From: Saccoglossus kowalevskii
Lineage: Eukaryota; Hemichordata; Enteropneusta; Harrimaniidae
Reading direction: 5' to 3'
Assembly: GCF_000003605.2 (NCBI RefSeq)
Contig: NW_003158724.1
Location: 705,304 to 755,162 of the forward strand
Length of the DNA stretch: 49,859 nucleotides
Position 1 is the first letter of the stretch, and every line of letters starts with the position of its first letter. The notes under the pieces were generated by a model. That model was not told the origin of the DNA and ran no database searches. It worked only from the letters and a program-made list of their open reading frames with translations. Made by a program: the position numbers and the translations under genes. Below are positions 6,001-46,908 of this stretch, in pieces.

Positions 6001-6297
6001 GCATCAAGTTCTCTTCGCTGCCACTTCGGTCGTCTGGGCGTGACCAGATCCGTTGGTCCACCTGTAAACACCACACTCAGAGTTACGTTGCTTGGAAGCC
6101 GCTAAAAACTCCAAGTTAATCTACTCGCCATTGCAGTACATCAGCCAGTAAATCATTAACCTGTTTACGGCAGGTGTGTTTATACTAGCTACTTAGTTTA
6201 CTAGCGACTCGAGGATCGACAACGACAAAAATGTTCGTCGCTTATCATCGTGACAGGGTATTTATTCAAGGATTAGTGTAAGAGATCATTGAACAAG
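1..6297. other. Gene-free AT-rich stretch
   Basis: No reading frame here has convincing coding character. The open frames are all under about 90 codons, overlap each other on both strands, and lack splice-site partners or recognisable motifs. The sequence is AT-rich with scattered short runs of A and T. Base composition becomes more GC-rich from about 5.9 kb onward, approaching gene A, which would fit a promoter or 5' untranslated region. Confidence 0.5.
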
Positions 6298-6644
6298 GTA
6301 AGGGGTGACCGCCACGAGCAGCTGACAGTTTGTCGTCAACTCTGTGCGTGTGAGCCTGCATAATTTAATGTCGATACGTTGGTCTAAAACAAGGAATTGC
6401 CCGCTGTTTTCGTGGACTGAATAGTCAATTAGTCATCGCAAAAACTTCACAACATCGCTCGTTTCCACGGTGTTCGCCTAATTCTTCTTCGACAATTTAT
6501 TTTGTGTTAAGAACCGTTTACTGTTACCTTGGCTACAGTATTATACGAACCGTTAGAGACCAACTCGATCTACGTTACACTGTGAACCGGATGGATAGGT
6601 GATCGCAGGCAGGATTTATAATATCCGCCCTGTCATCATCAACA
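6298..6644 (+). promoter_or_regulatory. Probable 5' untranslated region of gene A
   Basis: This stretch directly precedes the gene A start codon and is more GC-rich than the DNA further upstream. A good splice donor (AAG followed by GTAAGG) begins at 6298, so the leader may contain a short intron; possible acceptors are seen near 6508 and 6612, but none has a strong pyrimidine tract. An in-frame TGA at 6600-6602 closes the reading frame upstream of the start. No clear TATA box is visible. The exact transcription start cannot be told from sequence. Confidence 0.3.
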
Positions 6645-7403
6645 ATGTCAGAGGTGTTCGAAAAATACAAGGAAGAGCATAGCGACAACTATCCGCTGTG
6701 CTGGTCGATGCAGTACGCACCGAAGCTATCGCATGTCAAACCTTCAGACCTGCCCAAGAAGAAACCCCGGCGAATGATGAAAGCCGAACGCAAAGTGAGG
6801 TTCTCGTTCATGGAGAGGGTGGATGAGGAAGACGAGGAGTCGACATTCAGGTTACCCCCTCTGGATGGACTGAGAGGGGGTATAGGGCGTGCGAGAGTGA
6901 GCCGCGGTATAAGTTATTTGATTCCGGCTAACGAGGGGAAAGTCTCAATACAGAACACCTATGATCCAGACTTGTCTGCGCTTTTTAAACGACCATACAA
7001 CGACGATGTGTCGAGTCTCAAGAAAACACTGCGACCAACATCCAAGTCAGTGAATCTGAGTTCTAATAACACACGGGTACTCCGAGGGGGCGGTGGCGTT
7101 GCAACCCTGGAACCTTTGCAAGGAGCAAGTGTTCGATTGAGGAGGAGCAGTATTCAAATTAACCCCGAAGTGAGAGAAATGCTGAACAGCTTTGCTAAGT
7201 GTGCGCCATACGACGATCCGGTCGAGCCGGATAACAGATCAAAGTTAATAGCGGCCAAAAAAAGAAGGGAGAGCAACCAATCCGAGCCTGCGTATCTCAG
7301 CGAGGCTAAAGCCGACATGATCTGGAAATGGTTGAAGAAGGAGAACGACGAGAGATACGAAAAACAGACTAATGCAGATGCCTGGATGTACGAACTGCCT
7401 TGA
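6645..7403 (+). CDS. Gene A: unrecognised 252-aa protein with a PP1-docking-like motif
   Basis: I do not recognise this protein. It is one uninterrupted frame of 252 codons from an ATG with A at -3, the first ATG after an in-frame TGA at 6600, so the start is well supported. Its GC content is clearly above its surroundings. Residues 38-53 form a basic patch ending in KVRF (50-53), which fits the RVxF motif that docks proteins onto protein phosphatase 1. An acidic run follows (DEEDEE, 60-65). The middle is polar and probably disordered, with RRSSI at 166-170 as a possible basophilic-kinase site. Residues about 215-242 are charged and likely helical (IWKWLKKENDERYEK). There is no signal peptide or membrane segment, so it is probably cytoplasmic or nuclear. 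The PP1 link is inference from a short motif only. Confidence 0.8.
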   Translation: MSEVFEKYKEEHSDNYPLCWSMQYAPKLSHVKPSDLPKKKPRRMMKAERKVRFSFMERVDEEDEESTFRLPPLDGLRGGIGRARVSRGISYLIPANEGKVSIQNTYDPDLSALFKRPYNDDVSSLKKTLRPTSKSVNLSSNNTRVLRGGGGVATLEPLQGASVRLRRSSIQINPEVREMLNSFAKCAPYDDPVEPDNRSKLIAAKKRRESNQSEPAYLSEAKADMIWKWLKKENDERYEKQTNADAWMYELP

Positions 7404-14696: not shown

Positions 14697-14830
14697 ATGC
14701 AGCGAATAAGCTGTGAAGAAGACGTATAACAAGAACAGCCAGTCAACACTACTTCTGTATCTTTGACACCTTGAACCTTGTACGGGAGGAGCTGTACGGT
14801 TCACAGGACATGTGAATGCAGGATGTGTGA
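14697..14830 (+). promoter_or_regulatory. Cluster of short upstream reading frames before gene B
   Basis: Three short frames precede or overlap the likely start of gene B: a 10-codon frame at 14697-14729; a start-stop unit ATGTGA at 14810-14815; and ATG CAG GAT GTG TGA at 14816-14830, which overlaps the first in-frame gene B ATG at 14823. If they are in the mature leader, ribosomes would meet them first and gene B output, or use of the next ATG at 14880, could be limited. The transcript start is unknown. Confidence 0.35.
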
Positions 14831-15420
14831 AGAAGAAAAAAGAGTCGACGCTAGAGACAGTGTAGTAGAACGGGGGAAGATGAACAAGACGCGCAATCAA
14901 TCGTCTCTAACCAATCTACCACCGCTTGTGAACGAACCAAGAAAAAGTTTGGACATCTTGAATGGTGATTCTGAGCGAGACTGCGTTGAGCCACTCGCTT
15001 CCTCTCCTTCACTATGTCGTAGAAGACGGCTTTTAAGATATGTCTCAGCACCGGATACATTGCTTGACGCGGAAGGCAAAGCAGCGAAGACATCAAGTGA
15101 ATCGTCATCAATAAGATCAATAGAAAACTCATCGAGACTTCTTCGCCGACTGCTAAAGCAAACCGCGCCACAATCCCAAGACGAACAACCACCGTCACCT
15201 CGTATCCCAAAGAAGCACTTCTACGATTATAGATCGACCACGTCTTCGGAAACGTCGCCACTGGTGCCACGTAAAATAGTTTGTGGATCGTATGATTCGA
15301 CGGGGTTATCTCCCGTACCATCGCCGAGAGTGTCACGACGTGGAATTTCTACGCCGAACCAAAATCTTGAAAGTTTCCGACGAATAACACCTGTAAGAGC
15401 GTCTCGAACATTTTGTATGA
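14823..15420 (+). CDS. Gene B exon 1: unrecognised Ser/Arg-rich protein
   Basis: First coding exon of a two-exon gene whose protein I do not recognise (351 aa in all from this ATG). It ends at a consensus donor, GTAAGT at 15421, after one base of a split codon. Residues 1-199 are here. They are rich in serine, arginine and proline and look disordered: a short acidic-basic start, RRRR at 66-69, and several SP sites between 126 and 168. RYVSAP at 72-77 fits the R-x-x-S-x-P form bound by 14-3-3 proteins when the serine is phosphorylated. A second in-frame ATG at 14880 (residue 20) also has A at -3 and may be the real start. No signal peptide or membrane segment is present. GC content is well above the flanks. 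Confidence 0.75.
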
Positions 15421-16333
15421 GTAAGTACCAATATACTAAATGTGGGATTACTTTTACTAAAGAAGCCCAGTATTATGTACATGTATCAATGTGGTGCTCA
15501 ACAAATAACTAGAACAAGTTGTAAGCGTTTATTTTATTATTATTATTTTTATTTTATTTGAGGTAAGTATGTTGATTACACATGGATCAAACAAACCATG
15601 ATTACAACAAACATTCACACACAGCTTTGGATATAGTTTACATTTCAACGACTGTGTCTAGTATAGTACGTATATTAGTAAACAAGTTCTTTATAATCTG
15701 CATTGTAGTTAATGACGTCGTATTGTTGTTTCTTATCTCATTGTTGGTATTCACTTAGTACGAAGTATAGTTTCTATGACAAAAGTGTGCACGAATTTCA
15801 ATGTCAAAAGAAAATCATTACTAAATAAGTGTGTACTAGGTAGGCGTTCTGTGCTACAATGTACGACACAAAAACTCTCTAACTTCATATATAAAACCCT
15901 TAACGGTTGACGAAAATATTTGAATATTAATAGAAGAAGGAAAAGATTATAACAATAAGGTTATTACGAGGATACCTCAAAGTATGCACTCAGACAGTAC
16001 GCCGTCGCATCGTCCTCCGCTGCTCGTCGGTCGATACTCCCGCTGTACTGTCTTCGTGTATACTTTGAGGTATGCTCGTAATAACCTCATACTTGTGTAT
16101 TTACAACAAAATGACAATTGTAAGTTAGGTTTATTTAAGCTTCAAGGGTTGACTTTACTAGTACATGTACTATAAAAGTTGCGTTATAATAGTATTATCT
16201 ATGCATGAAGATAACAAAATTGTTTTTCTCTCTTTTCTCTAAAGTAGTTTGAATCTAAAGTTGTATTTTTTTCAATTGAGTTTGCTAATCGATTCGCTAT
16301 GAAGTTTACTTGTATTTTTATTTCTCTTTCAAG
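15421..16333 (+). other. Intron of gene B
   Basis: The donor GTAAGT and the acceptor TTTCTCTTTCAAG join with matching phase: the split codon becomes AGG (Arg 200), and the downstream frame stays open for 151 further codons. The intron is AT-rich and contains a long hairpin at 15958-16087, described separately. An unspliced transcript would read a few codons past the donor and stop at 15510-15512. Confidence 0.75.
15958..16087. repeat. Long intronic hairpin (43-nt arms)
   Basis: Arm 15958-16000 is the reverse complement of 16045-16087 at 39 of 43 positions, separated by a 44-base GC-rich loop. The arms begin AGGTTATTACGAG. The length and near-perfect pairing would let the intron RNA of gene B form a stem of about 43 bp. 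It could be a small foldback element, or the precursor of a small RNA. Confidence 0.7.
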
Positions 16334-16791
16334 GGAGTGCCCATAATGCGAACGCTAATGGGTCTAGCGTTATAGACATGCATGAATTGAACAACAAGCT
16401 GACTAGCTGTGGGATGAATGAACAAGCTGTGAATTCGCCCTACGTGTGTAATCACGTGACGTCGGGTAACATACGCTACAGGAACGAGGCGCTCAATGGG
16501 GAGGACTTTGACAAAATACCGACGAATAGTTCCGAAGAAGAAACATCAGCTGTAAAAGAGGAACATCTTGAGTCAAAGTCCAATATCTGTGAAACGTTGG
16601 ATGATAACTGTGTAAACGCACTTGAGACCCACGAGGAACATAAACAGTACGATAAGTTATCTGACACCAGAATACTAAACTGGTTGAGCGATATTGAAAA
16701 AGAGATGCATCATGGCGCGGGGGAATATGGCGTCCGCCTGCCGACAATAAATGAATTTGCATATAATCACGTGACATCTGAACGTGAATGA
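16334..16791 (+). CDS. Gene B exon 2: acidic C-terminal half
   Basis: Terminal coding exon, residues 200-351, ending at TGA 16789-16791. It continues exon 1 in phase through codon AGG. This half differs in character: it is acidic (SSEEET at 265-270 and further Glu/Asp clusters) and ends in a more ordered segment, RILNWLSDIEKEM at about 312-324 followed by RLPTINEF at 334-341. This tail is the part most likely to be conserved and useful for database searching. The function is unknown. The next gene (FGF) runs the opposite way, so the two are convergent with about 1.1 kb between their stop codons. Confidence 0.75.
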
Positions 16792-17935: not shown

Positions 17936-18190
17936 TTACACACGTCTGTCTGTCACTGGCAACTGTTGCAACCTCTGATTTTCGTGTGCAATTTGTATTT
18001 GCAGATTGTCGTCATTCAGAGCAAAGGCAGTGGTGACAATGGTACTCGTTTCTAATCCCATGTGAGAACCTCTGTACATTTCACCGTAAACATCGTGTGA
18101 TGCATTGGACGTGAGATAGGAACAGTTTTCAAAAAATGTTCTTTTATCTACAAACCGAGACAGCAGCGACATGCAATCCCCAATTGTAAT
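17936..18190 (-). CDS. FGF gene, candidate terminal exon (first choice)
   Basis: The minus-strand frame opens immediately after a TAG that can serve as an acceptor, in the phase 0 required by exon 2, and runs 84 codons to TAA at 17936-17938. Joined to exons 1 and 2 it gives 227 aa, a normal FGF length. The start ITIGDC could correspond to the acidic-Cys pair that precedes the last third of the FGF trefoil, and GSHMGLE could match the YVAL-type strand. Against it, the acceptor has a poor pyrimidine tract and the usual C-x-F-x-E-x6-Y signature is not visible. A rival exon is at 20797-20925. The coding exon itself is plausible; its place in the FGF gene is inference. Confidence 0.35.
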   Translation of the reverse strand: MTIGDCMSLLSRFVDKRTFFENCSYLTSNASHDVYGEMYRGSHMGLETSTIVTTAFALNDDNLQIQIAHENQRLQQLPVTDRRV

Positions 18191-18798
18191 CTATTTAGCT
18201 CATCTAAACATTTTACTATGGTTTCTATGACAACCTTTATGCATGAGCATCATTCATCGCACAGAACTATTTTTAGAAGATGAATACAAAAGGCAAAGGG
18301 CGATCTGATACTAAGGAATAAGAAAAACATAATTGGAAATCACCAAAATAGCATCTTAGTGACGGAAATTACAGCTTCCATAAGTCTTCTGTTATCTCAT
18401 TGATGCTTTTTATATCATTACGTCGGAGATTGAATTAACTCGAGATTCGACGGACGATAGTCTTGTCACATTTCTACTGCACATGCGCAGATAGAGTGAG
18501 ACTTACGGTTCTTATCGATGTCATCATCGTGTATGTATTATTTTACAAGCCTTAGAAGGCCACTGACAATTCACGTTATTATTTACACAGTTTAAATCAA
18601 ATGAATGGTAACCTTCTGTTTTGTTCCGATATGGATTGGCATCGAAATTACATCACGTTTCGTGCGAGAACACGATGTGGCTCGACGATACATTACACCC
18701 TGCCTACCGCACAAACCTAGACCGATTTTCTTGCTATTTGAGCGCAAGCGATGACGACTGCATATATCAACAACAGCAAATTACTAGTAGTTTAGTTT

Positions 18799-18991
18799 GA
18801 GACAAAAATTTGTTCTGAAAATGTAAAATAGATTAAATTAAATCACATAATGTATTAAAGCAGATAGCGAATTAGTTTATTTCTCGTAATTTATTCAATT
18901 TTTGATGTACATGTATAAGATGAGACAAAATGTTGTTCTGAAAATGTAAAATAAATTAAATCAAAACACATAAAGTATTAAGGCAGATATG
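18799..18991. repeat. Diverged tandem duplication
   Basis: Two similar segments of about 70 bases begin at 18799 and 18922 (period 123): GAGACAAAA, then GTTCTGAAAATGTAAAATA, then an AT-rich part ending at AAGCAGATA or AAGGCAGATA. The spacer between them is unrelated. It is non-coding. Confidence 0.6.
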
Positions 18992-20796
18992 AATATTTAC
19001 CAACTCACATTAATGTTATGACATTAATTCGCCTTGGCCCAAATGATCCGGTTCGAGAATGCATTACGTCATCATATATAAAACTAAATCTCATGCAGTT
19101 TGTCTATAAATCGTCACTTTGGCTTGTGGATAAAAACAGGGAAATAGCTAATGAAAACTTAGGTCGTATTATTTTTTAGAAAATACGTCTACAGACTTTT
19201 GTCGTGTCTTAAAGTAGACATCACCATCATGTAATTATGATGGGTAAGTGTGATGCCCTATGCAAGACAGTCGTTTTTACAATTGGTGTCATGCATCTCT
19301 TGCGTTCGCAGTCCGTCTCGCTAATTAGATGGCGTCATTCGTTACCATTTTGAACACGAACTACAGTGATCGGTGAAATGGCCAACTTCAACCTGGTTAT
19401 TGGCGAGTTTATGGCCACACGCAAAGAGATTGAATTATACATGAAGGAAATTGTATTTTGTATAATTCAAATAATTTAAATAATTTAAATAAAATCACAT
19501 TAGTTATTCTGCACGTTTTAAATAATTAAGAAGAACATCTCTGGTCACGTGAACAGTTATTATTATGAACATATGAATGATATCAAAACTTGTTTGGACA
19601 ATACAAATGTCCTGATTTCTTAATATACACCAACAGACATATACTAGTATCCAAGGCAACGTTGAATACATGGACGTTCAGAACGATTTAAATATCAGAA
19701 CGATTACAATGAATATACATCGTAAAGTAAACTCATGAGTTAAATCAAGGTGGGTCGTATGGTTATGCAAATTCCATCAATATGTCCGTTGATATTAAAT
19801 AACAGTGCATCGTTAGTTGTCCCATTTTCGCCTTGTTTTAACAAAGGAGAACCTAATGAAATAACTCGGAATTATTTACAGTCAATATACAGGACAGAAT
19901 AACGTAACACCCCCACCCCCACCCCCTTGAGCAAATAATTTGTTGTTAATTAGAAATTCAACTCGATTTACTTCCTGATGGCAATCAAGTTTAATATCAT
20001 TTTGTTGTGTATGTATTTATTCTCAGAATAAAGGTAAATGACGTCATACATCATAGGCCATGAATGAAATAAAATCTCGCGTGAGTACGAATCAGCATTT
20101 GATGCATTGTGAATGTCTATTTTCTTCGAAAGTCAGAAGACAAGCGAGAACAGGTAGCCTGATATTTAAAACATAACTGTTTTTTTCTGAAAACTCTAGT
20201 AATGTATTTTTATGAGATTATACATATCATAAATCATTTTTTTAATTAAATAAAATACATCTTCGCCAAGATTAACATTATTGTAATGTGCTTTGAAAAC
20301 AATTGTTTATTGTGGTTGAATGTGTATATATCATTTTAAAGGGTAATCTAGTCTCGGTTGTCAGGTGGGATGGTTTTCACACGTGTCAGCCAAGGCACTG
20401 TGATACAGTTTACATTACATATCAATAATTATTTGAGCCATGTACAATCTTTGTACAATACTCATCTACCCACCAATGCATTCTCGTGCACTGGTTCGAT
20501 GAATAATGTTGCGTTCTATTTTTCCAAAATCTCAAAACAGCAAGCGTGATAGCATACAGCTTAGCCATATATATAAACCCCGAATAACGATGTTTACACT
20601 TTATAAGTGTTGTATTGGCTTTAAAAAATGGTCACCTGAATAGTACATAGTTTTGTAAGAAGCAAAAACAAACAGTTATGACTTCAATTCCCTTCACAAA
20701 TACCAGCCACGCAACATTATAAGCTTTTGACCCTGTGTTTGAACTCGGGCCTAGAAGAAGTAAGCGACGTTGCAGTGATGTGCGCATGTGCTCTAT

Positions 20797-20925
20797 TCAT
20801 TCGCTGTCGTCCTGGTAACGGAGCAGTGCGATACGATGAACATCCATTACGGAAGACTGGTCGAACTCTGCATCGTTCTCTTTCACTTCGGAATAAGTTG
20901 TCTTGCAGGACATAGTTACGTCTGT
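20797..20925 (-). CDS. FGF gene, candidate terminal exon (second choice)
   Basis: After an AG at 20927-20926 the minus strand stays open for 42 codons in phase 0 and stops at TGA (20799-20797). The surroundings are more GC-rich than the introns. With exon 2 it would place a cysteine (TMSCK) at the spacing expected after the G-x-x-x-S of the FGF signature, and RIALLRY could be the YVAL-type strand. It would then lack the final beta strand, giving only 185 aa. Other frames across the same stretch are also open, so chance is a real alternative. Confidence 0.2.
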   Translation of the reverse strand, partial: TDVTMSCKTTYSEVKENDAEFDQSSVMDVHRIALLRYQDDSE

Positions 20926-22393
20926 CTACTGCCATTCATTGTCAAAAAATGTGAGCTGTTTTTGCATTTATAGTCGCTTTTCTTTATACGTCCACGTTTA
21001 TCAACTGAAATGTACCAGCTAGTCGTCGACCTGCTGTTCTGTGGGTGCTGATAGGACGAGTAAACACGGAAGCCATCTTCGATGCTCTCCTTGAATATAT
21101 TATCTTCTGTTATTAACTCCTGGGGGTTTGAAAGAGAAAGTACATTATTACACTATTACGCAATGCCTAAATATGGCCATGATTCATATAAGCTGGTTTC
21201 ATTGGATTACGCAATATAATGTGCAGCTTGTCACGTACACAATATCGTAAAGATAACAATATATGGCAATCTGTAGATTCAGCATTCACATTACGAATCC
21301 CCCTCCCCCACATACACACAACTTTAGTTACCAAAACAATCCCGACAAACGTCTTTGTTGGAGGGCCCATTTGATTATCCAGGGTATATACAAGGGTATA
21401 TTTGTAGTTGAATAACGCGTAATAACGCACTCCGTTGACAGTTGGCTCAATGAAACTATCTAGCTAAGGAATTGAAACATGAATAATCCAAGCAAGAAAT
21501 TAATTAATTGCCCGAACTATTTTACATAAAATATGGTTATATATGTCTTTGTTTACTTTTGTTATTTCAGTTGGTTTAAAAATGATAAAAATGTTTGGCG
21601 CTAATATTAACCATTGTGTTGTGTTGTGTTGTGTTGTGAACAAGCTCTGTGTTTATAACACGATTATTAGACCAGACCATATCATCTTTGTTACAGAGAT
21701 GATACAGGAGATTGTATTGTGTAGATTCTCGCGTTATTTCTCATTCGCGTTTACATTTACATAAATTTAAACATTTTGCGGGAGGCTATATTCCGCTCCG
21801 TGGTTTCTTCAACACCATGTTTTCACAGGGCTCACAGATGAAACTATTGACCAGGGCGTCATAAATATGCTAGCTGTCATCATATGAGGTATATTTAGAT
21901 CAATTAACTTCACTGTCGTTAACTCTGTGGTTTTGTAAACTGTTTCGCTTGTTATATTCTGTGAACCAACATTACCTTTTCGTTAGCAAATGAACGCACA
22001 CAAGATAAAATCGTGCTCCATTAAGCTTTGCATTTGAAATTCTCAAACATATTCGCTGCAGCTGCGGAATGTAACGAAAATGGGGGACTAAAGGATGACG
22101 CAATCATAGAAGGCCAGAGTGTATGTTTGATAAATCTTCTAAGTTATTCTACAATAATAGAAAGACATTGAAACGTCACATTAATCGTAGCCAATAAATA
22201 CGAGAGTATTAAATTAGACATGATGGGTTACGCACTAGCCAGCATAACGAAATAAGATAACGTTACAGGGACTTGGTTGTGTAATCGTGATCAGACTTGA
22301 CAGGTAGCATAAATCTTAGTGAATACACGGTTAGCCTGGATTCGTGTATGTAACCTTCCTGTCACGTAGGCGATACACTGAAATTCAGTCACA

Positions 22394-22447
22394 ACTAGAA
22401 ATCACGTGATATGACGTCACAATGTATTCATGAATACGATTTCTAGT
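22394..22447. repeat. Nested palindromes with E-box and CRE motifs
   Basis: Outer arms ACTAGAAATC (22394-22403) and GATTTCTAGT (22438-22447) are perfect complements. Inside lies GTATTCATGAATAC, itself a perfect 14-base palindrome, and the string CACGTGATATGACGTCAC, which contains a CACGTG E-box and a TGACGTCA CRE. It sits about 110 bases beyond the FGF exon 2 donor, inside the intron. It may be a regulatory site or a tiny foldback element. Confidence 0.5.
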
Positions 22448-22554
22448 AATTTGAATAACCAATACTACACGCGTTTATCGTTAGTCTGCTACACTGACCA
22501 GGCTTTACAAATGTATTGAAGAAAAACATTTTGTTTTGCATTTTATATACTTAC

Positions 22555-22658
22555 AGTTGAACTAAATTGTCCATTTTCATCCATTGCTAGATAAAATTGT
22601 GACGCCGTTCCCCTGATAACTACAGCTCCAACCATTGGCGTATAAAATTGGATATCGG
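22555..22658 (-). CDS. Fibroblast growth factor, exon 2 (104 nt)
   Basis: This exon encodes the middle third of the FGF beta-trefoil, a secreted ligand for FGF receptor kinases. It is bounded by a good acceptor (TTTCTATTCTCAG) and donor (GTAAGT) and is exactly 104 nt, the length of the second coding exon in many FGF genes. Entering in phase 1 it reads residues 109-143, including VGAVVIRG (118-125) and FYLAMDENGQ (130-139). These match position for position the VGLVSIRG and LYLGMNEKGE segments of FGF9-type proteins, while YLAMD resembles FGF1. The GxxxS at 138-142 starts the family signature. It leaves in phase 0. I cannot assign a subfamily. Confidence 0.93.
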
Positions 22659-25600
22659 CTGAGAATAGAAACAAAATATATTTTGACATTAATTTCATAT
22701 TCAACGCGTGTGAACTCTAAAGTTGTTTCATACTACATTTAAAGCGAGGCTATTACACATAGCGTCAAAGTCCAAAAAGTGATACTGTGATAGGTATTAT
22801 TAGTCTCAAATACAGTGGTACTGGCAATATTATATAGTTTCTGAGCCCACATTGTTTTTCAATAAAATTGCAAATAAAAAGGATTGGGTATTCTGATATC
22901 TTTTCCAGCAAAATATTATTTTTAATATAGAGTGGTTTGCATTCATATTTGGCACACATTTCTGTTGTAGTGTGAAACCTCAATGTCAGATGAATAACAT
23001 ACAAAAAACAACATAGTGACTGTTGTAACTGTACAGAATGTAGTTAGCGAATTTACATACATTTAACAGCAGATTTGCAGATACAAATGAAAAATGAAAA
23101 AATTCAATGGTCACTCGACTAGACCGATAATATTTTTTAATATATAAGTTTCAAAGCAATTGATTGAAATACTAGTATGTTCACGTTTCTTAAACACACG
23201 ACGGCGACATATATTGTATATGCAACTCCTGTACATCTACGCTACTGGGAAGGTGTGTGGGTATACTGTAAAGTGAATCAACGCAAAACACACAAACTAT
23301 TATTGCATTGAAATGCATTATAGTCGGGGTCAATATTAGTATAAAGAATTCGCGCTGAGTGACGTAATCTATATTAACTACGTAACCGTAGTCACTGTAA
23401 TATTTTCATTGAGCAATTGACAACTGTTACACAAATGGCAAACACATTCAAAACGTTGCAAGGAGTCACAGTCGTCACACTGCGCCATGGGTCCCATTCG
23501 ACGTATACAACGTGTATACAAGCATTGTTTTGTTTTTTACATAAATATCGAAGATCATCAGGATGAAGGTAGAGCTGCGAAGTATGGTAATAATATTCAA
23601 GCTCGTGGTCAACTGACACCGTGACGAATTGAATGACACTATTGTTAAATGTGTATATGCTACGAAATTAGTTTAGATTCACGTTATTGTATTACAAATA
23701 AACATTTAAATGGAAAATTACACGCAACCTTTTCCCCCAAGGCCATTTATTATTGCTCCCACAAGTGCACTACATATCAACGTCAGTTTGCAATTGATTA
23801 CGATTTAGATATACCGATAAGTTCTGTGTAGCGCTCACAAATACAATTCTACGACTACGGCATTAAATGAACTATTAACCTTTATCTCTTCCTATTTGAT
23901 TTATTTTAGTACTTTTCCTTAAAACGAAATAATACCCGCTAATGTATAATAAAATAATTTGCAATAGTAGAAGTTGGTACGTGCTCGATTTCGCAATCCA
24001 GTTTGCGTGGATATTTTTCGATGAGATATTCCATTTGATCGTGCTTTGCTACGTCAGCGTAAGCACCTTGGGCATTATATAGTCACGGTAGCTTTTATCT
24101 CGTTTAATTGTGTAATGCAGTATCAATCGATCATGTCAAAACAAGGTGTCATTAGATTTACCATCCATTGTGGACGAATCTTGCTCGTCAATTGGCGCGC
24201 AACAACATGTGGGTGAGTCAGTATTCTCGTCGTTTTTTTCCGGTAAATCACGATATTCACAATAATGCTATATTTAATCCCATTACTCAACGCTGAATCA
24301 CATGTGCGTACGAAAACACATGTCTCTAATAGTAGTATACGGATTCGACTTAAGAGCTCTAATGTCGTCAGGTCGTCTCCCGGGACAGTTTGATATATAT
24401 TTTCTAGTTATCCTTCCAACGCATTTTATTAGACGAAAGCATGACCCAATTTTACAATTTCAATGGAGCGTCTAGCTCTAGCTCAGAATCGACCTGTTTT
24501 TGTATACCATTAGCTGTTTCTTATTGTTTATACTGTATTAATTAATTAATTATTGATTGAATGTGATTGACAGACGAACGATGAATATCTTCAATATTTC
24601 AGAATAGAGTTCAAATTCAGCAAGTTATTGTTATTTCTTTCGTGTTAATGTTGGTAAAATATGAAGTGGAAAATTAGAAAATAATATTACTGGCGCCCAG
24701 TTATAAAGGTATTACGGAGATTTGGTTAGGCGCACCGACGTATGTCGGACCCATAGATTTTTCTAATACAAATTAGATAATAAATATATGCATATAGCAT
24801 TCCCGATATGCAATCACCCTGTCAGTGACAGGCATACACGTCTTTCTCTATCGGTTGGGGGGGGGGGTGAGGCAAACGACGATTTCAATGCAATCACATC
24901 GATATAAAATTGTAATTCATTCAACTGAAGTTGATTTCCATTCACAAATAAAAAGTACCTCGTTTCGCAAGACGTTACAGCGTTTATCGTAAATTCCAAT
25001 CAATGCGGATTCCTTGATTACGGGTGTTCAATAAAATCATTGATTACTCAACATTGGTGGGAAAAGGGTTTTGACAGGTGGTATTTATTTAGTATACTTA
25101 GGCTGTCAATAATCCCAACCTGGTGGTTTACCTAGTACGTACTCGTGCGTCCTTCTGTGTTCATTAACAAGTTCTACTTTTGCACATAATTTCTTCTAAA
25201 TTTCTTAGTCATCGATGACATCATTGACGATTTGAGCAACTTTTTAACTTAGTTCGTCCAAATACTCCAAAATCCATAACAATTTCCACCAATAGCAAAT
25301 AATAAAGGCTTCTACGCATGCGCCGAAGGCAGCAGTGATTCATACTATTGCAGTTATTTGAAAAGTGACCGTGTGGATATAGATTAAAATATATCACAAT
25401 TAGATAGCTTCTATCATCATTTTCAATGATTCAGACTTTTTTATTACAGAGTAAACTAAACCGCGGAATACTTAATTATGTTGCTCGAATGACACCGGTG
25501 TCCAAATTTAAATAGGGAAAACAGTAGTATCGATGGTGCATTCGAACCACCTTTTTCACAGGCTGCTCGTGATTGAAAGAATTAAATTGCTAATTATTGT

Positions 25601-25989
25601 TGTGTTTGGTAGATTCATGGCATACCAGCGTAATAGATTGGTTACTATAGTAACATCGATTATGATCATAGTAATGGTCGATTACATGCTATTTCCTTGC
25701 ATGCATAGCAGTTATACTCGACATATCGCATGATAAATAACGCATTTAACATCAAACAAACGGACTTGTAAAACAATCGATGTTCTTTTTTTTAGATTGT
25801 TACAACTATAAGAATATATTGCAATTAAGGTGTCACGTGACAGCGAGTCGAGTCCGACTAGAATTCAAGTCACCTTCACTCCTACCTATTACCGATGCGT
25901 GAACCGCCCTGGGATAAGAAAAATAAATATAAAACACACTGCGTTATGAATATCAGCGTGGCTATTAGTATGCACAGTAAAACACTCAC
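22659..25989 (-). other. FGF intron 1 (3.3 kb)
   Basis: A phase-1 intron between two secure FGF exons, at a position conserved in FGF genes. It is AT-rich. It contains an 11-G run at 24857-24867 and otherwise no structure I can support. Confidence 0.85.
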
Positions 25990-26314
25990 CATACATATTG
26001 TTCCTTTGATTTCCCGGTATGGTTCGGACAGTGCCATTCAATATTTGCAAACGGTATCTTGATGATCGGGTTATGAGTTGGTATACCCTAGGATTGGATG
26101 ACAGGTCCACGGTGATAGGTGATGTTGCCAGGGATAATTCCGTCTCCGTCAATGCCCGAGCTTCCCGATATCCCCAGTCATCCCCGGAACCATAAAAGTT
26201 ATCATACAGTAAACTACGTTGTCGGAAAAGTGTTGAAGAGGAGACCAATCGGAAATTGGACAAGAAAAGTAAAAATGCTGCGAGCGCAGCCAAGGCAGAT
26301 ATAAACGATTCCAT
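25990..26314 (-). CDS. Fibroblast growth factor, exon 1 (start and signal peptide)
   Basis: First coding exon of a secreted FGF. The ATG at 26314-26312 is the first after an in-frame TAA. Residues 1-27 form a typical signal peptide with a hydrophobic core (ALAALAAFLLFL). A linker follows, then the trefoil begins at about residue 77: VYQLITRSSRYRLQIL and then NGTV (93-96). This matches the LYCRT...HLEIFPNGT start of FGF9-type proteins, and NGT is also an N-glycosylation sequon at a site used in that group. The exon ends one base into codon 109 at a consensus donor (GTGAGT), the usual place and phase for FGF intron 1. It joins exon 2 through codon GCC. A TATA box lies upstream. Spliced exons 1 and 2 give 143 codons. 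Confidence 0.92.
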
Positions 26315-39948: not shown

Positions 39949-40379
39949 AGCATATAGGCCATATTTTACATAAAAAAAATGGGATGAAATAACAAAAATA
40001 ATTTTCAGTGGAAAAAACAAATCTTGCTAGTATTACAGTGCTCTTATCCTTCAAATAATACTCTCATAAATTCATTTTACTACTTTTCATAATTTAAAAA
40101 GATTAAATTTTCCTAATATATGTACAAAATCCATATTTATATACAATTTATATAAAAGTCACGATTCCCCAAAATGACTACATATTACAGACATACACAA
40201 TTCTTTAATAAACTAAATCATATTTACTCACAAAATATCTCAGAACCATGACAATTCTGTTTGCTAATTGTGGGTTTGAAAGATAAACCTGGACATTAGG
40301 TTAAGCCTAATAACATGATTACCAATATCAAAGGAAAGCCCACCTAATTAATACTACATTGGAAACACAAAGATATAAG

Positions 40380-40512
40380 GTCACAGTAATTTAGGAACAC
40401 AAAGTTAAGAAGTCACAGTAATTTAGGAACACAAAGTTAAGGAGTCACATTAATTTAGGAACACATAGTTAAGGGGTCACAGGAATTTAGGAGCACACAT
40501 TCAAGGAGTCAC
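40380..40512. repeat. 32-bp minisatellite, about four units
   Basis: Units begin GTCAC at 40380, 40412, 40444, 40476 and 40508, exactly 32 bases apart. The consensus is GTCACAGTAATTTAGGAACA followed by CAAAGTTAAGGA. Later units diverge progressively, and the fifth breaks off after GTCACATG. Confidence 0.92.
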
Positions 40513-42752
40513 ATGTACCAAACTGTCAGAGGTAAGAAGACCCCAGTAATTGATACACAAGGTAAAACCGAGATAAAACTAGTCTACTACATAATAATCT
40601 CTTTCATCAGTGTAAACAGCAATTTTATTTTTATCTTTGGCAAAATGGAGAAACTAATAATGTCCTTCAACATTTTAACTTGTTAGTGATAAGTATTACT
40701 GCCCAAATAAGTATATCAATGTAAACAGTACTCCCCCATAAAAATGTATCAAGAATTTATTTCACTACTAATAAAATAAATTTCTACTTCAAGATTTAAA
40801 ATATAATATAAAATATTGTGACATCAGTATACAGAGGAAAACAAACTCATTTTACTGAAAAATAAATATTGCGTAATATTACATCACTATCTTACTGTAG
40901 TAAAAAAACAAGTATACAAATATAAATGAAAAAACAGGGTCTGATATTTCCTGGAGTTACAATCGGTTGGCATCACTGTATCTAATCTGCCAATGCAAAG
41001 TTGTGAGTTCTGTGGGTGGCCCTCTCAATTGCGATGAGCAGGTCTTACACTGTGACAAGCTCATTCTACAGACCTTGTATCAAGACATTACACTAGCTTG
41101 TAATAGCTCAGTTCTATTATAACATGACATACGTACCAATAATAAACATACCAACACATCAATAGACATTTTCCTCTGTCAAACAGAAAACCTCAATTTA
41201 CATGTATTACAAATATATCAAAACAATACTGTCCATGAATCTATATTTCAGGTTTAAAGTAACTTTTTTACTTTAAGTGTTGTGCATTCAGTTGTGCAGT
41301 AACAGTATCTTTTGTATGTTTCTTTGTATAAATGCTAGGACCTATTTGGCCCTTGCCACGCTAGTACTGGGTATAGAAACTCACAGATACGGTGATACAG
41401 GTGAAGAGTTTTATAACATTATGAAGCTGATAGTAATAAATATAAAATAATTAGAATCATGATTGACATTATTGGCACATATTTTATTGTTGATTGATAA
41501 TTGCAGCATTGGGTAAACTTACTATTATGGAGTTAAACATCAGACTAAACATGAAAATAACACAGCAATCAGCAACACATCCATTCAGGCCAGGATAGTA
41601 TACGAGTAAAATGAACTATGGATTGAGTCACAATGATGCTGCAAACCAGGAAAAGATCAAATATTTACTGAATAGCAAAATAATTATCAAAATAAATCAA
41701 TGAAATGAATTGCAAATAAATTAATCAAATAGTGATGCAATCATGACAGAAATCACATATGAATGGAATGATTAAATCATTATTAAATAGCGAGCCAAGA
41801 AATTAGTCAAATGGTGTTTCAATGTAATTTACATTATTTCTAATCGATTATATAAACTAGCAAATCGTTAAAATGGCCAGGTATGTTGAAAGTTGTGTAG
41901 TTGACTGGATGGATGTAAACGACAGTTCAATAACCAACAACATGGACTATATGACTGTCATTGAACTAATCATTCAAAACAAAGAATCATAAAAACAAGT
42001 GACCATTAAATACTAAAAACTTCATTCATGGTTATTGGTTAAGTATCATTACACAAATAATAATTAATAATAAAAATAAATCAATGATTAGTCATTTACT
42101 GATATATATTGTAATTAAATTATGAATAATTCATTTAAATTATTAATAAACTCTACCACTTAAAGACCATTTTGCTAACCTTCACAACCAGCAATCCAGT
42201 TTTGAAAGTTTCTTGTCATTAGATAATGTAAATGAGTCACTGATAATGAATTGTCATTAGATTCTATATTGCACTTACAATACAGCTGTATTTTGTTACA
42301 CATGTGCTCATCATTAGAAAGCTATAGGTCCTAAATCATGTGGTATTTTCATTCAACATACAAAAAAATCATTTATCAACATTTTATAAAATGTCCATCT
42401 GCAACTTATTCCATCACTGGGACTAATGAATAAAATACAAAGCCACCCAAGTTAGATTTTTCCCACATGTTCAAATATTAAATAAAATTATTTTACAAAA
42501 CAAAAAATTCCAACTAAAATAATCCACTCAGTTGAAATTACCTGCTTACACAAGAAAACCTTTCGATAAAATAACAATCACTTCTAATATATGTTTGACA
42601 AAAAAAAATGTTTTCTCGATGAAAAATATTTATTTATAGTAAAAGTAACATCAAATATATAAAACTATTGCCGCTGTATTGTTGTCGCAATTTGAGTTAA
42701 TCAAGACAACCAAAGATAGATCATCAGGGATCTCATCTCATCTTTCTAGTAC

Positions 42753-46235: not shown

Positions 46236-46908
46236 TAGCTCCGCTGTTAGCAATGCACATTTCAATTAAAGAACTGAAGACATCATTAGAAAATGAACAA
46301 TATGAATAGTATCAAAGCAATCGGACTTATAGTTTTTAACAAGTCGAAAATATCACTTTTTACCAAAAAATTACAAAAATATTCACCAAAATAAATTAAT
46401 TAGAGAATTGAAGATATCATCACAAAACGAACAAATCTGAGAGAGGTCCACATGTAGTACCTATATATGTAATATCAAAGCAATCGGACTTACAGTTTTC
46501 AACAAGAAGTCGAAAATATCACTTTTTACCAAAAATGACAAAAATATTCACCAAAATTAGAGAATTAAAGATATCATTACAAAATAAACAAATCTGAGAG
46601 AGGTCCACATGTAGTACCTATATATGTAATATCAAAGCAATTGCACTTGCGGTTTTTAACAAGAAGTCGAAAATATCACTTTTTACCAAAAATGACAAAA
46701 ATATTCACCAAAATTAGAGAATTGAAGATATCAACATGAAATGAACAAACCTAAGAGAGGTCTACCCAAGGTACATATACACCAAGTATCAAAGCATTCA
46801 GGCTTGTAGTTTTCAAGAAGAAGTCGAAAAAGTAAAACATTGACACGGACGACGACGGACAATCACTCATATGATAAGCTCCGCTCGACAAAGTCGACAG
46901 CGGAGCTA
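46236..46908. mobile_element. 673-bp element with inverted ends and 157-bp tandem units
   Basis: The ends are perfect 12-base inverted repeats, TAGCTCCGCTGT (46236-46247) and ACAGCGGAGCTA (46897-46908). Inside are four tandem units beginning at about 46272, 46406, 46563 and 46720. Three of them are full 157-bp periods; the first is shorter (134) and lacks the GAGAGAGGTCCACATGTAGT block. The last unit runs into ACGGACGACGACGGACAATC and then a hairpin, AGCTCCGCTCGAC facing GTCGACAGCGGAGCT. It has no coding capacity. It looks like a non-autonomous transposon in which an internal unit has been amplified. Confidence 0.8.

Follow-up and report, generated by a model that had tools for sequence, protein, structure and literature searches.

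Fibroblast growth factors (FGFs) are secreted ligands that bind heparan sulphate and FGF receptors; most of them, though not every one, have a signal peptide and leave the cell. In vertebrate FGF genes, a phase 1 and a phase 0 intron flank a middle coding exon of about 104 nucleotides (nt). For the hemichordate Saccoglossus kowalevskii, Table 1 of the survey by Oulion et al. (2012, PMC3420111) gives six FGFs, namely one FGF8/17/18, three FGF9/16/20 and two without an orthology entry (a 'hypothetical protein' and Fgf-Sk1), and the text of that survey speaks of one S. kowalevskii gene earlier shown as an FGF19/21/23 orthologue. Fgf-Sk1 is described as an anterior marker (PMC3856589), and five FGF ligands are described for Ptychodera flava (PMC6091094). 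Here we analyse a stretch of 49,859 bases from the S. kowalevskii assembly GCF_000003605.2 (contig NW_003158724.1; C4771:705304-755162), which is called the window throughout. We put at about 0.95 the probability that its minus strand carries a complete three-exon gene for a secreted FGF ligand, referred to below as the window gene.

The coding part of exon 1, which lies in a stop-to-stop frame at 26341-25889 (minus), encodes a hydrophobic signal-like N-terminus, then a pro-region and the first portion of the FGF core. Intron 1 splits the first alanine codon of exon 2, the product of which is (A)DIQFYTPMVGAVVIRGTASQFYLAMDENGQFSST. A first-pass annotation of this DNA had already placed these two exons, and its positions, phases and splice sites proved exact, as did the 104-nt length and the phase 1/phase 0 borders of exon 2; the kilobase introns it had described are likewise borne out (Table 1). 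The gap in that model is filled by exon 3, newly located here, which encodes 67 amino acids (ELITEDNIFKES...SSHFLTMNGSRQT) within a 78-amino-acid open frame. Joined together, the three exons form a single open frame of 210 codons plus a stop over a coding span of 26314-20916; the four splice sites are canonical, the phases are kept, and the stop stands just past the end of the FGF core. The gene had previously been drawn as far as position 17936, a limit that seems to have been fixed by an open frame downstream of exon 3, but the coding sequence ends well short of this point.

Table 1. Features of the window gene and its surroundings, and two further FGF-like loci of the assembly (window positions unless a contig is given)
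Feature	Position	Strand	Details
FGF exon 1, coding part	25990..26314	minus	325 nt; start codon; ends in phase 1; donor GTGAGT
Intron 1	22659..25989	minus	3,331 bases; GT-AG, GTGAGT/TCTCAG
FGF exon 2	22555..22658	minus	104 nt; phase 1 to phase 0; acceptor TCTCAG, donor GTAAGT
Intron 2	21120..22554	minus	1,435 bases; GT-AG, GTAAGT/CCCCAG
FGF exon 3	20916..21119	minus	204 nt including stop TAA; acceptor CCCCAG preserves frame
Candidate polyadenylation-like AATAAA, nearest downstream	20306..20311	minus	pattern match
Open frame beyond the FGF gene	17937..18157	minus	72-residue open stretch; no Pfam match
Second FGF-like locus on C2167	C2167, ~165202-165721		104-nt exon 2; last exon in two frames
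FGF-like locus on C4067	C4067, 343674-343094	minus	107-nt exon 2

The joined 210-residue protein matches the Pfam FGF profile (PF00167; curated cut-off 24 bits, length 124) with 76.9 bits (E 1.7e-21) over profile positions 1-122. Exons 1 and 2 alone score 37 bits (E 3.9e-9), with residues 76-141 spanning profile positions 1-65, which upholds their earlier assignment to the family, and exon 1 alone has no match in Pfam. Exon 3 alone reaches 28.9 bits, above the cut-off, contrary to the earlier statement that none of the plain open frames reveals the gene. Nor is the alignment to FGFs free of gaps, as had been claimed: it shows small gaps within the region of exon 1 and lacks one residue in that of exon 3. 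Among the best 60 of 119 matches to solved structures in PDB, a consensus-based FGF scores 48.7 bits, FGF13 45.9 bits, an FGF7/FGF1 chimera 44.8 bits and FGF9 42.6 bits, the last standing under the consensus, FGF13 and FGF7 chains. Rfam, tRNA and plasmid searches gave no match.

As a control, a separate profile was built from nine vertebrate FGFs and applied to 2,260 frames of the window. The exon 3 and exon 2 frames score 27.7 and 24.5 bits, respectively, and the next frame of the window scores 6.4 bits. The best score is 6.9 bits in the reversed window and 10.7 bits in 20 order-2 Markov windows, and on these controls a chance origin of the FGF match is rejected.

The predicted precursor is hydrophobic at residues 4-19, where mean hydropathy over 13 residues reaches 2.58, and comprises a pro-region some 50 residues long as well as an FGF core at residues 76-200. 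It also has three N-glycosylation sequons, a lone cysteine at residue 195 and a predicted isoelectric point of 9.2 from residue 28, and the basic stretch KRGRIKKSDYK is retained. The sequons, the basic isoelectric point and the hydrophobic N-terminus fit a secreted basic ligand without proving it. Splicing of the two GT-AG introns would yield this 210-residue precursor, with a signal-like segment, a pro-region and a single FGF core; by what is known of the family, the mature ligand would then be secreted, heparan sulphate would retain it via the basic part encoded by exon 3, and it would activate FGF receptors. That the gene is expressed and its product secreted and bound to heparan sulphate is predicted from sequence, and a beta-trefoil fold and binding to FGF receptors are predicted from similarity to solved FGFs.

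Several observations weigh against the reading of a complete and functional ligand gene. The start codon context is weak, with T at -3, and splicing in the animal is presumed, the model being drawn from sequence alone. In Pfam FGF scans of the 572 Mb assembly, no exon of the window gene is listed at E 0.001, and at E 10 the gene appears by exon 2 only, with 21.9 bits, below the cut-off. Within the protein, the near-constant FGF cysteine is replaced by asparagine, the loop before the conserved tyrosine is one residue short, and the second glycine of the G-x4-G stretch is replaced by serine. With the cysteine, the loop and the G-x4-G stretch altered, the function of the protein could have drifted. 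The G-x4-G stretch has a role in heparan sulphate binding; as a guess, the lost second glycine and the short loops could lower that binding.

The same scans place the window gene among relatives. At E 0.001 there are FGF loci on C1514, C2951, C2659, C3698 and C2167, and the search at E 10 adds C4067 and a second locus on C2167 (Table 1). Hence, the assembly holds at least eight FGF loci including the window gene, a number that is a lower bound because the stricter scan missed the window gene. As modelled, all seven sister loci are above the Pfam FGF cut-off, four of the models lacking exon 1. At all eight loci a phase 1 intron precedes exon 2 and a phase 0 intron follows it; the exon borders of the sister loci were chosen by hand at AG and GT sites compatible with the reading frame. 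The view of the 104-nt exon as a hallmark is only partly sustained: five of the eight loci have this length (the window gene, C2951, C2659 and both loci on C2167), whereas exon 2 has 107 nt in C1514 and C4067 and 125 nt in C3698. No FGF paper with a '104 bp' second exon came up in the one literature search made for it. A protein search with the window gene returned its own three exons, a weak match to the first C2167 locus (E 0.23) and one to C1345 (E 9.7), the latter dropped as an FGF locus, its frame being unlike FGF.

The near-constant cysteine, which stands in the xCxFxE stretch of the PROSITE FGF signature, is present at five of the eight loci and in all ten vertebrate rows, and is missing in the window gene, C2951 and the second C2167 locus. 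A strict PROSITE-like pattern finds 10/10 vertebrate rows and 0/6 of the models of this genome that were compared with it. The strict cysteine pattern is a poor membership test for this genome, and Pfam places these proteins in the family regardless. Two sister loci have distinctive last exons. That of the FGF9-like gene on C1514 (72867-73202) is extended by RRRKENKRRKDSRRKRKKHRKEKKRDRKDRK, a long and strongly basic insertion that separates two core strands and might be a site of strong heparan sulphate binding or of cleavage. That of C4067, for which no first exon was found within the 20 kb fetched, has a FLPRAVDPQKVP stretch resembling the FGF9 tail.

Some of the sister loci can be placed in subfamilies. 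C2659 is an FGF8/17/18: it matches FGF18 in PDB with 80.8 bits, and the branch of FGF8, FGF18 and C2659 has support 99/98. C1514, C2951 and the first C2167 locus have FGF9/FGF20 as their best PDB match, and in C3698 consensus FGF and FGF9 are about equal. These four likely hemichordate relatives of FGF9/16/20, C3698 less clearly so, share with the window gene the FGF core and the exon 2 phases, and two of the four share the 104-nt length; in contrast to FGF9/16/20, the window protein is without an RPVDP-type tail and without the cysteine, and has one residue fewer before the conserved tyrosine.

By sequence comparison with solved FGFs, the window gene is the most divergent of six loci, its best PDB score of 48.7 bits being the lowest (79.4-117.9 bits in the five others, two of them queried without exon 1). 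With the vertebrate profile it is again the lowest of the same six, at 68.3 bits, the next being 82.0 bits. In Pfam, C4067, modelled without exon 1, falls below it with 61.5 bits. The window gene has the longest end branch (1.76) in a tree of 16 rows, where it stands beside FGF19/21 with support of 27/33; in a tree of 18 rows, which includes two more sister loci, it pairs with the second C2167 locus (support 62/79), and the branches of both C2167 loci are slightly longer than its own. It lies outside the branch of FGF8, FGF18 and C2659, and in the best tree it is not with FGF9/FGF20. In approximately unbiased (AU) tests, none of eight alternative placements of the window gene (five on 16 rows, three on 18 rows) is rejected (p 0.25-0.44); constrained to the FGF8/FGF18/C2659 branch and to FGF9/FGF20 it has p-AU 0.37 and 0.25, respectively, both on 16 rows. 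Neither tree supports any subfamily for the window gene, and its weak PDB matches favour no single subfamily.

One alternative that touches on this placement is an endocrine FGF of the FGF19/21/23 type. It would account for the position beside FGF19/21 in the smaller tree, weak as its support is, and for a DG..VY.S..H stretch common to the window protein and FGF19/21, and one S. kowalevskii FGF is assigned to this type in the text of PMC3420111. However, the gene pairs elsewhere once the two further sister loci are included, the basic stretch KRGRIKKSDYK is retained, and the grouping with FGF19/21 is neither supported nor rejected on 18 rows (p-AU 0.40), so that we hold this assignment to be quite improbable. 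The other alternative follows the pairing in the larger tree, with the window gene and the second C2167 locus as a fast-evolving, hemichordate-specific type of FGF with changed use of heparan sulphate or receptors. The two share the 104-nt exon 2, the missing cysteine and the one-residue-short loop before the conserved tyrosine, as well as, in the alignment, a gap of two residues in the basic loop that follows the last glycine, a similar gap occurring nearby in the first C2167 locus. Unlike the open exon 3 of the window gene, the last exon of the second C2167 locus continues in another frame after a break, which may reflect a pseudogene or an assembly error, and no exon 1 was found in the stretch fetched around it. 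Two results weigh against a close tie: the second C2167 locus is absent from the protein search made with the window gene up to E 10, and among the rows of the 18-row tree the window gene is most identical to FGF4, at 32%. We consider such a type unlikely, its absence from the protein search counting against it. If real, the type would have lost the cysteine, the residue before the tyrosine and, as aligned, two residues of the loop that binds heparan sulphate.

A different question is whether the gene is intact. A pseudogene derived from an FGF, or a duplicated gene in decay, could have a best PDB score as low as that observed among the six loci searched (48.7 versus 79.4-117.9 bits) and could lack the usual cysteine, and a frame break is indeed present in the second C2167 locus. 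Nevertheless, three open exons, four canonical splice sites, phases that are kept and a stop right behind the FGF core all speak for an intact gene, which makes decay very improbable. Still more remote is a gene with an additional or another 3' exon, such as one that the frame at 18157-17937 might supply. This idea draws on the limits given by the first-pass annotation and on the 72-residue open stretch found there; against it, exon 3 brings the profile to position 122 of 124 and supplies a stop codon. Furthermore, Pfam gives that frame no family match, its best E being 0.23, and frames of at least 72 residues number 88 in the window and 48-78 in each of ten Markov windows; it carries little weight because such lengths arise commonly by chance and no family match accompanies it. 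We thus retain the reading of a complete three-exon gene: the window gene is an ordinary ligand gene of a known family, and its architecture is normal.

The flanks of the gene were scanned against Pfam with nine frames, out of 134 frames of at least 70 residues in the window plus 20 kb on either side, and none of the nine was over its cut-off. Long, coding-looking frames on the plus strand are found at window positions 14775-15512, 16303-16791 and 6603-7403, and one of them gives the best of these matches, a weak one to TMEM71 (19 bits against a cut-off of 27); these frames may belong to neighbouring genes as exons. The window also has two tandem arrays, one of a 157-base unit in 3.3 copies (46310-46830) and one of a 32-base unit in 4.7 copies (40364-40513).

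The mitochondrial contig C4830 (17,037 bases), the genes of which were named from translations, carries cox1 on the opposite strand, with ND2 preceding ND1. When its cox1 is aligned to COX1 of the vertebrate type, ATA falls at isoleucine in 6 of 8 sites and at valine in 2 of 8, AAA at lysine in its one site, and TGA at tryptophan in 5 of 7. The cox1 frame contains neither AGA nor AGG; in the twelve frames of the contig that were counted, the single AGG lies in the frame of cox3, which has an overlap with that of atp6. For S. kowalevskii mitochondrial DNA, PMC3121625 describes an inversion of cox1, a transposition of ND1 or ND2, AUA as isoleucine, AAA as lysine and AGG without assignment, and PMC2697986 likewise gives the ATA and AAA assignments. 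The inverted cox1, the order of ND2 and ND1 and the two codon meanings of C4830 match the account in PMC3121625. Behind cox2, at about 6243-6879, the contig has near-identical repeats, in which three open frames share most of one peptide.

The six proteins of Oulion et al. belong to the same family and the same species as the window gene, and the comparison made here is by their description in Table 1 of that survey. Two of them have no orthology entry there, just as the window gene has no supported subfamily, and the window gene may be one of these two. It could also lie outside that list, given that the table has six proteins and the assembly at least eight loci. Hemichordates are a key outgroup for the number of FGF types in the deuterostome ancestor. 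A complete model of a divergent gene, together with at least eight loci rather than six, bears on whether the diversity of FGFs arose in chordates or earlier.

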